This document shows, piece by piece, positions 49,372-51,318 of a stretch of DNA of 53,104 nucleotides. The notes below the pieces were generated by a model. The model did not search any database, was not told the DNA's origin, and worked only from the letters and a program-made list of their open reading frames with translations. Position 1 is the first letter of the stretch, and every line of letters begins with the position of its first letter. Made by a program: the position numbers and the translations under genes. Source of the DNA: Peptostreptococcaceae bacterium (GTDB lineage: Bacteria > Bacillota > Clostridia > Peptostreptococcales > Anaerovoracaceae); contig JAENWG010000007.1 in NCBI GenBank assembly GCA_016650175.1, positions 1-53,104 on the forward strand. The letters are read 5' to 3'.

Positions 49372-50436
49372 TTAGAGCTCTAACAGATAGTCTCCATCTT
49401 TGACTTTATTAAATTTTCGAAGTAACTTATCAATTGAAAGTGCTAATACCGCAGGCAATGCAATATGCAGTAATAATATTTCAAATAGTACCGTAACACT
49501 AAATCCCATAGCTGTAAAAGTTCCTATCTGTCCAACTAAACCGGATGTTCCCATTCCGGCGCCTAAAGCTATATTACTCATTTTAAATACCACAGTAGCT
49601 AATGGCCCTACTATGGCGCCAGCTAAGGTTGCAGGCAATAATATCCAAGGGTTTTTAATTATATTTGCTACTTGAAGCATTGATGTACCTAGTCCCTGTG
49701 CTACAAGTCCTCCTATTCCGTTATCTCTATAACTTACCACTGCAAATCCTACCATCTGTGCGCAGCAACCCACGGTTGCCGCTCCTGCTGCTAAGCCTGA
49801 TAAATCGAGCATTATACATAAAGCTGCACTTGATATCGGAGCAGTTAGTGCTAATCCTACTATTATAGCTATAATTATACCAAACATAAACGGTTGTAAT
49901 TCAGTTGCTTTCATTATGAGTTGTCCCAGACCTGTCATAAGTCCATCTACTCCAGGACCAACTAGTTTAGCTGCTAGCATTCCCATTATTAAAGTTAATG
50001 CAGGAGTAACTAAAATATCTACCTTTGTTTCTTTAGATACTGCCTTACCAAATTCGGCTCCGATTGCTGCAGATATAAACGCTCCTGCTGGACCTCCAAA
50101 AGCCGCACCCATCATTCCCGTAACTACACTTGTAAAAAGAACTAGCGGTGGCGCTTTTAATCCCCAAGCAACAGCTATTCCTATTGCTGCTCCCATCAAA
50201 CCCATAGCTATAGAACCAGTTTCAATAAGAAAGTCTGCTATACTTTTTATTGCAAGTAAGCTTGTATCTTCTCCACCTATTAAAAGTATTGTCTGTTGCC
50301 CTATTGTCTTTATTATTAATCCTATTAATAATGATGCAAAAAGACCTAGTGCCATTGCGGAAAGCGCCTCTTGCAAATATCTTTTACTCGAAAATTCAAT
50401 ATCTTTTCTCTTAAGAAAAGCCTTAAAATTATTCAT
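49372..50436 (-). CDS. Orphan PTS EIIC-like (PTS_EIIC_2) membrane protein, NiaR-controlled
   Basis: The 354-residue protein has about nine or ten membrane segments rich in Gly/Ala (MGAAIGIAVAWGLKAPPLVLF, MMGAAFGGPAGAFISAAIGAEFGK, TAPISSAALCIML). It fits the PTS_EIIC_2 family. No EIIA or EIIB domain is fused or adjacent, so it is unlikely to be a classical phosphotransferase permease. Its promoter contains a NiaR-type operator and the divergent gene encodes NiaR; I infer a role in niacin or related pyridine uptake. It could still be a structural relative with another substrate. Confidence 0.8.
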   Translation of the reverse strand: MNNFKAFLKRKDIEFSSKRYLQEALSAMALGLFASLLIGLIIKTIGQQTILLIGGEDTSLLAIKSIADFLIETGSIAMGLMGAAIGIAVAWGLKAPPLVLFTSVVTGMMGAAFGGPAGAFISAAIGAEFGKAVSKETKVDILVTPALTLIMGMLAAKLVGPGVDGLMTGLGQLIMKATELQPFMFGIIIAIIVGLALTAPISSAALCIMLDLSGLAAGAATVGCCAQMVGFAVVSYRDNGIGGLVAQGLGTSMLQVANIIKNPWILLPATLAGAIVGPLATVVFKMSNIALGAGMGTSGLVGQIGTFTAMGFSVTVLFEILLLHIALPAVLALSIDKLLRKFNKVKDGDYLLEL

Positions 50437-50478
50437 GATTAATCCTATCCTCCTATATACATATAATTAAGCTTTTAT

Positions 50479-50507
50479 AATATATCATCTATATTTACAG
50501 CTGTCAA
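50479..50507 (-). promoter_or_regulatory. Promoter of the EIIC-like gene, -35 inside NiaR operator
   Basis: On the minus strand, TTGACA (50502-50507), a 17-bp spacer and TATATT (50479-50484). The -35 is in the centre of the palindrome at 50494-50519, so a bound repressor would block RNA polymerase. Confidence 0.85.
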
Positions 50508-50519
50508 GACACCTGTAAA
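50494..50519. promoter_or_regulatory. NiaR-type operator (26-bp palindrome)
   Basis: The half-sites TTTACAGCTGTCA and (reverse strand) TTTACAGGTGTCT match in 11 of 13 positions. The ACAG-TGTC...GACA-CTGT pattern resembles known NiaR (YrxA) sites of Firmicutes. It overlaps the EIIC-like promoter and lies 8 bp upstream of the niaR -35. Confidence 0.85.
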
Positions 50520-50527
50520 GCTTACTG

Positions 50528-50556
50528 TTGACTTTTTCCCATATTACATGTATATT
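50528..50556 (+). promoter_or_regulatory. Promoter of niaR
   Basis: TTGACT (50528-50533), a 17-bp spacer and TATATT (50551-50556), about 22 bp before the niaR start. Confidence 0.8.
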
Positions 50557-50578: not shown

Positions 50579-51094
50579 ATGAAATCAGAAGAAAGAAGAA
50601 ATGAAATATTAGATCAATTAAAAAAAACCACTTCTCCAGTTTCAGCTGGTAAACTAGCTGAAATATTTAACGTAAGTCGTCAAGTAATCGTCGGTGATAT
50701 AGCTTTATTAAGAGCAGCTAGCATCAAAATTTTAGCTACACCTAAAGGCTATGTTATAAATCCGGGAAATAGTAATGATGATTCTTGCATTTATGTCATA
50801 GCATGCAAGCATGATGCTGATCACACTTTAGAGGAACTTTATACCATTGTAGATTACGGCGGAGAAGTCATTGATGTCATAGTTGAACATCCTATCTACG
50901 GTCAATTAACAGGATACTTGAATGTATCTTCTAGGTATGACGCAGATCAATTCGTTAAGAACATTGAAGAGCAAAACACCAAACCACTAAGTGATTTGAC
51001 CGATGGCATTCATTTACATAATATCAAATGTAAAGATAAAAGTAATTTTGAATTAATTAAAAAGATGCTATGTGAAAAAGGTTATCTGCTATAA
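50579..51094 (+). CDS. niaR: NiaR (YrxA) family niacin-responsive repressor
   Basis: NiaR represses niacin uptake or NAD synthesis genes when nicotinic acid is plentiful. The 171-residue protein has an N-terminal winged helix (EERRNEILDQLKKTTSPVSAGKLAEIFNVSRQVIVGDIALLRA) and a C-terminal 3H domain with conserved His (KHDADHTLEEL, VEHPIYGQLTGYL, DGIHLHNI). The ATG at 50579 has AAAGGAG seven bases upstream; a frame extension to 50528 would overlap the promoter. It is divergent from the EIIC-like gene it probably controls. Confidence 0.93.
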   Translation: MKSEERRNEILDQLKKTTSPVSAGKLAEIFNVSRQVIVGDIALLRAASIKILATPKGYVINPGNSNDDSCIYVIACKHDADHTLEELYTIVDYGGEVIDVIVEHPIYGQLTGYLNVSSRYDADQFVKNIEEQNTKPLSDLTDGIHLHNIKCKDKSNFELIKKMLCEKGYLL

Positions 51095-51211: not shown

Positions 51212-51260
51212 AAAAACGCTGTAACCCTTTAAATTCAAGGTTTACAGCGTTTTACTTTTT
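51212..51260. terminator. Terminator of niaR
   Basis: A 12-bp stem AAAACGCTGTAA/TTACAGCGTTTT (51213-51224 with 51242-51253) with an inner CCTT/AAGG pair and a T-rich tail. The sequence 51095-51211 holds no gene I can support. Confidence 0.85.
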
Positions 51261-51318
51261 TGGCTTTGGTAACAATTAGGTAACAATTATGTAGAATGCA
51301 ACAGGATTAGCCTGTTAT

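Follow-up and report, generated by a model that had tools for sequence, protein, structure and literature searches.

What does a membrane protein resembling the EIIC subunit of sugar phosphotransferase systems (PTS) do when its gene lies back to back with niaR, the gene for a niacin-responsive repressor? The question is raised by the last part of a 53,104-nucleotide stretch of DNA from a Peptostreptococcaceae bacterium (GenBank assembly GCA_016650175.1, contig JAENWG010000007.1; hereafter the window), which belongs to a draft, 1.6-Mb assembly that is 78% complete. The original prediction proposed uptake of niacin or a nicotinamide-related compound as an alternative to a phosphotransferase role. 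This candidate function is now supported by operators, by linkage to nad genes, niaR, and pncB, and by the absence of enzyme I. We consider it quite likely that the EIIC-like gene encodes a NiaR-repressed importer of nicotinate, or of a close pyridine such as nicotinamide, that acts without phosphotransfer and is most likely NiaY.

A NiaR operator covers the -35 of the predicted promoter of the EIIC-like gene

The EIIC-like gene occupies positions 49372-50436 on the minus strand and encodes a 354-aa protein with a PF13303 domain, a candidate NiaR-regulated, NiaY-like nicotinate transporter; the end coordinate of 50519 given originally is that of the operator and not of the gene. A riboswitch was sought with an Rfam scan, and none was found. 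The divergent gene on the plus strand (50579-51094, with its ATG at 50579) had been named as niaR, and this identification holds: Pfam detects HTH_11 and 3H domains, the product matches the solved NiaR structures 9ebr, 1j5y, and 7cv0 at 1e-34 to 1e-37, and alignment to these structures shows that the metal and niacin ligands His, Glu, and His-x-His, whose roles have been described (PMC7713382), are kept. Downstream of niaR, at 51215-51265, a dyad-like stretch followed by a T-rich run resembles an intrinsic terminator, for which the scan gave no report.

Between the two genes lies a 26-bp imperfect palindrome, TTTACAGCTGTCAAGACACCTGTAAA (50494-50519), a NiaR operator of type I. Read on the minus strand, positions 50517-50495 are identical at all 23 positions to TACWRGTGTMTWKACASYTRWAW, the mutationally verified NiaR operator consensus from pneumococcus (PMC5343564); shuffling gave an expectation of 0.10 matches with three or fewer mismatches across the window. 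No site in the assembled genome other than 50494-50519 matches a shorter operator pattern exactly. Two further matches with one mismatch fall within reading frames and were discarded, and at two or fewer mismatches the genome shows no excess over a reversed-pattern control (27 matches versus 33).

The top-scoring promoter of the region, TTGACA-17-TATATT on the minus strand (50507-50479; 11 of 12 positions), belongs to the EIIC-like gene. Its -35 hexamer (TTGACA, 50502-50507) lies within the operator, at its middle, as originally predicted to be inside it, and the promoter scan places its -10 hexamer (TATATT, preceded by TG) at 50479-50484. An operator over the -35 element is the layout that would be expected for direct repression by NiaR. 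The niaR promoter on the plus strand (TTGACT-17-TATATT, 50528-50556; 10 of 12 positions) begins 9 bp past the operator, and autoregulation of niaR through this nearby site is possible.

We propose the following mechanism. With niacin plentiful, NiaR would bind the operator and block RNA polymerase at the -35 element, so that uptake stops; once niacin runs short, NiaR would leave the operator and the importer would be made. Nicotinate or a close pyridine (such as nicotinamide) would then enter through the EIIC fold of sugar-PTS permeases with no phosphotransfer, and the imported vitamin would feed NAD synthesis via nicotinate phosphoribosyltransferase (PncB). NiaR binding, the direction of transport, the substrate, an energy source that may be ion-coupled or facilitated, and the identity with NiaY are what we infer here.

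The protein is predicted to have a transporter fold

The EIIC-like protein scores 293 bits against PF13303 (PTS_EIIC_2; gathering cut-off 28.9), with positions 2-325 of the 327 in the profile covered, and a Pfam profile search found one copy of the gene in the genome. Neither sequence nor profile searches found relatives of the protein in the PDB. An AlphaFold2 model, built from 47 sequences comprising the window protein and its relatives, has a mean pLDDT of 95.2 and the fold of a glucose-superfamily EIIC. Structure comparison aligns it with MalT at Z 16.1 (315 residues) and with the IIC domain of PtsG at Z 15.8; together with ChbC, these matches span Z 11.8-16.1 over 301-315 residues, versus Z scores of 6 or less for proteins that are not PTS permeases. 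Because the matches to MalT and PtsG IIC stand far above those to unrelated proteins, the transporter fold was kept, and the model predicts that the protein is of this kind.

Linkage to niaR and NAD genes recurs in relatives

We searched 60 relatives for PF13303 and the 3H domain. Both genes occur in 25 genomes, the window genome counted, and in 17 of these they lie no more than about 4 kb apart. The two are divergent or co-directional neighbours in 13 of the linked genomes, and four have a niaR-nadA-nadB-nadC-EIIC cluster in which the EIIC-like gene is last; one of the four clusters was confirmed by Pfam, the others being recognized by gene sizes and by the positions of NadA and NadC. In one genome (G027), pncB (403.8 bits to TIGR01514, cut-off 269.6) starts about 40 bp downstream of the EIIC-like gene.

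Across the 60 genomes, the EIIC-like gene occurs independently of NiaR (Fisher p 0.78) and NadA (p 0.58), and its co-occurrence with enzyme I is not significant; the argument therefore rests on linkage and operators. NiaR was not detectable in 15 of 40 carriers, which, together with this independence, means that some members of the family may have other roles or other regulation.

The wider family shows several other arrangements. At L039-L044 (G049, G033, G046, G038, G042, and G053), more divergent PF13303 proteins (182-221 bits) form a second subfamily, which has no linkage to NiaR. In many Bacilli (L118-L180), the position of the EIIC-like gene is constant, ahead of genes encoding a thioredoxin-like (ytpP-like) and a DUF1444 (ytpQ-like) protein. 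At one locus, niaR and the EIIC-like gene are followed by a gene for a 922-aa UPF0182 membrane protein (L093:5104-7872); at L094, L095, L046, L047, and L174, the next gene is about as long. A sugar or pseudouridine role hinted at by a staphylococcal neighbour was dropped, that neighbour being fructose-bisphosphate aldolase and 225 bp off.

NiaR-type operators precede the EIIC-like gene far above background

The operator core TGTCNNGACA is found exactly upstream of the EIIC-like gene in six of the 17 linked genomes, versus 0.36% of random windows (p 3e-11), and in 11 of the 17 when up to one mismatch is allowed. Among 80 named loci from GTDB genomes, which span Bacilli, a Fusobacterium, Photobacterium, Neisseria, and others, six carry the exact core, versus a background of 0.13% (p 1e-9); two of these named loci (L102 and L111) are the same records as two of the relatives (G010 and G009). 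A 3H protein is encoded in 32 of the 50 genomes from which the named loci come. In the four genomes with the cluster, nadA rather than the EIIC-like gene has operator-like sites upstream, these being single best matches to a weak matrix built from three pneumococcal sites.

Whole-genome operator scans provide what we regard as the strongest evidence. In a 4.0-Mb genome (G038), the only two exact operators precede nadA and the EIIC-like gene, respectively. The only sites found in G001, G010, G045, and G049, and the only exact operators in G016, precede the EIIC-like gene. The pattern is not universal, since G012 gave no match at the threshold used and G009 gave several background matches. The original prediction turned on whether NiaR-type palindromes recur upstream of the gene in relatives or are missing from its homologues: they recur far above background, though most Bacilli copies next to the ytpP/ytpQ-like genes have no clear site.

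The genus appears to depend on external vitamin B3

NadA is absent from both the window genome and its congener G001, and NadC above background was found in neither. G001 encodes nicotinate phosphoribosyltransferase (PncB) above the curated cut-off; PncB was not found in the 78%-complete assembly of the window genome. From these gene contents, the genus seems to depend on an outside supply of B3 and to be capable of using nicotinate.

A nicotinate phosphoribosyltransferase gene was also found in most linked genomes. At first the niaR-nadABC-EIIC genomes seemed to have no PncB, which looked like counter-evidence to nicotinate, but they have a PRK08662-type enzyme. Among linked genomes, this type was found in G041, G046, G047, G052, and G057; in G047 the identity is 72% over the part that could be read. 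In families with niaR-nadABC-EIIC or niaR-EIIC loci, the enzyme (L310, L311, L312, L313, and L314) escapes the Pfam models commonly used for PncB. In G046, its reading frame seems cut short.

Alternative explanations

The Pfam family name, PTS EIIC, and the predicted glucose-superfamily EIIC fold would both suit a conventional sugar-PTS EIIC whose EIIA and EIIB are encoded elsewhere and whose control by NiaR is incidental. We regard this as very improbable. Enzyme I (PF05524) is lacking in the window genome (G000) and in 20 near-complete carriers, one of which is the congener G001 (97% complete); PTS transport is therefore excluded in those 20, which already contradict such a role. EIIA or EIIB genes neither adjoin the EIIC-like gene in the window nor occur among the neighbours scanned in relatives, as the original prediction had noted for this locus when it doubted a phosphotransferase role; the consistent co-location with sugar-PTS EIIA/EIIB genes that it had named as contrary evidence was not seen among those neighbours. 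Sugar EIICs use a His/Glu pair, and neither an invariant histidine nor a GI(T/S)EP-type motif was found in 47 sequences of the EIIC-like family. The recurring operator and nad linkage also argue against an incidental role for NiaR. The historical name of the family would instead make the protein a PfoR-type membrane regulator and not a transporter, and PfoR of Clostridium perfringens presumably belongs to PF13303. The name goes back to a C. perfringens protein, encoded upstream of pfoA, that was suspected to be a regulator, but a pfoR mutation left pfoA expression unchanged (PMC4448169); moreover, the predicted fold is a transporter fold and regulation is already supplied by NiaR, and we give this explanation the least credence of all.

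More weight is due to the idea that another NAD precursor (nicotinamide riboside, nicotinate riboside, quinolinate, or NMN) is imported under NiaR control, and not the free vitamin. The riboside transporter PnuC is NiaR-controlled in pneumococcus (PMC5343564), a quinolinate transporter is not known (PMC6593275), and several members of the EIIC-like family are clustered with nadC. We nevertheless think it rather unlikely, given that most linked genomes have a nicotinate phosphoribosyltransferase (PRK08662 type included), that pncB follows the EIIC-like gene in G027, and that many carriers of the EIIC-like gene have no full NadC. Import of nicotinate is thus our preferred reading, and the substrate could be another pyridine. 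A possible parallel is that in Staphylococcus aureus mutants of pncA and of pfoR, a putative orthologue of the EIIC-like gene, were both depleted in blood (PMC13227979).

A broader proposal, on which we are evenly divided, is that a PTS EIIC fold freed from phosphotransfer serves as a lone B3 carrier even in cells without a PTS, and that much of PF13303 consists of PTS-independent transporters of pyridine vitamins, common across Firmicutes, with scattered occurrences in Proteobacteria and Bacteroidota.

Relation to known vitamin B3 transporters

Genomes that have NiaR and lack the EIIC-like gene often have another transporter, such as a NiaP-type MFS protein or an ECF component, adjoining niaR: a TIGR00895-like MFS protein in G011, MFS proteins in G024 and G026, and an ECF S component in G031. 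Such differing neighbours would be expected if transporters of unrelated families had replaced one another for a single substrate. Two further neighbours were seen. In G002, a very hydrophobic 203-aa protein with no Pfam or NCBIfam match is encoded after niaR (L077:1884-2495), with an exact NiaR-core site in between, and is a possible B3 transporter. In G025, which has neither NadA nor the EIIC-like gene, a Na+/H+ antiporter-family protein (PF03553; L073:2115-3290) adjoins niaR with an exact core site nearby, making it a candidate vitamin carrier.

We take NiaY to be typified by BH3254 of B. halodurans, which presumably underlies the SEED name "predicted nicotinate-regulated transporter BH3254". 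A 4.2-Mb genome of another species of the genus Halalkalibacterium has a single PF13303 gene, which lies beside ytpP/ytpQ-like genes and has a NiaR-type site, GATGTGTCTTGTCATGTGTAA, upstream. This gene and its site fit BH3254, and the EIIC-like protein is therefore treated as a probable NiaY. Searches of the literature did not yield a sequence identity for NiaY; on the basis of consistent context, the EIIC-like protein probably belongs to the NiaY family. Three families of NiaR-controlled niacin transporters have been published, NiaP, NiaX, and NiaY (PMC5343564, PMC7713382, PMC6593275); NiaY, predicted by Rodionov et al. in 2008, has been reported from five Bacilli and Clostridia genomes (PMC5343564). 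The idea of a B3 importer is thus probably not new, but a rediscovery of NiaY as predicted in 2008. What our analysis adds to that prediction is the exclusion of PTS function, the link to pncB, the whole-genome operator scans, and a confident model of the EIIC fold.

For most bacteria that must import B3, the transporter has yet to be identified: among B3-auxotrophic gut genomes, just 25% had a confident detection of NiaP, NiaX, or NiaY (PMC6593275). Were this large family, now annotated as a sugar-PTS subunit, firmly shown to be a B3 importer, many annotations would be corrected and this gap would be partly filled. An EIIC fold unable to use PTS phosphorylation would also be a clean case, in which the energy source of the carrier is directly testable.

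NiaP (MFS) and NiaX (an ECF S component) are regulated by NiaR, the predicted regulator of the EIIC-like gene, but they belong to other protein families; in several relatives without the EIIC-like gene, the position beside niaR is filled by MFS or ECF proteins. With NiaY, the protein has in common that both are membrane proteins from Bacilli and Clostridia with a proposed role in niacin uptake under NiaR, a control that the operators suggest here. With MalT, ChbC, and PtsG IIC, the glucose-superfamily EIICs, the protein shares its predicted fold over about 310 residues at 12-16% identity, and it is some 80-90 residues shorter than MalT and ChbC. What sets it apart from these sugar permeases is that EIIA/EIIB genes were not seen among the neighbours scanned, that many of its hosts lack enzyme I, and that its family has no invariant histidine.
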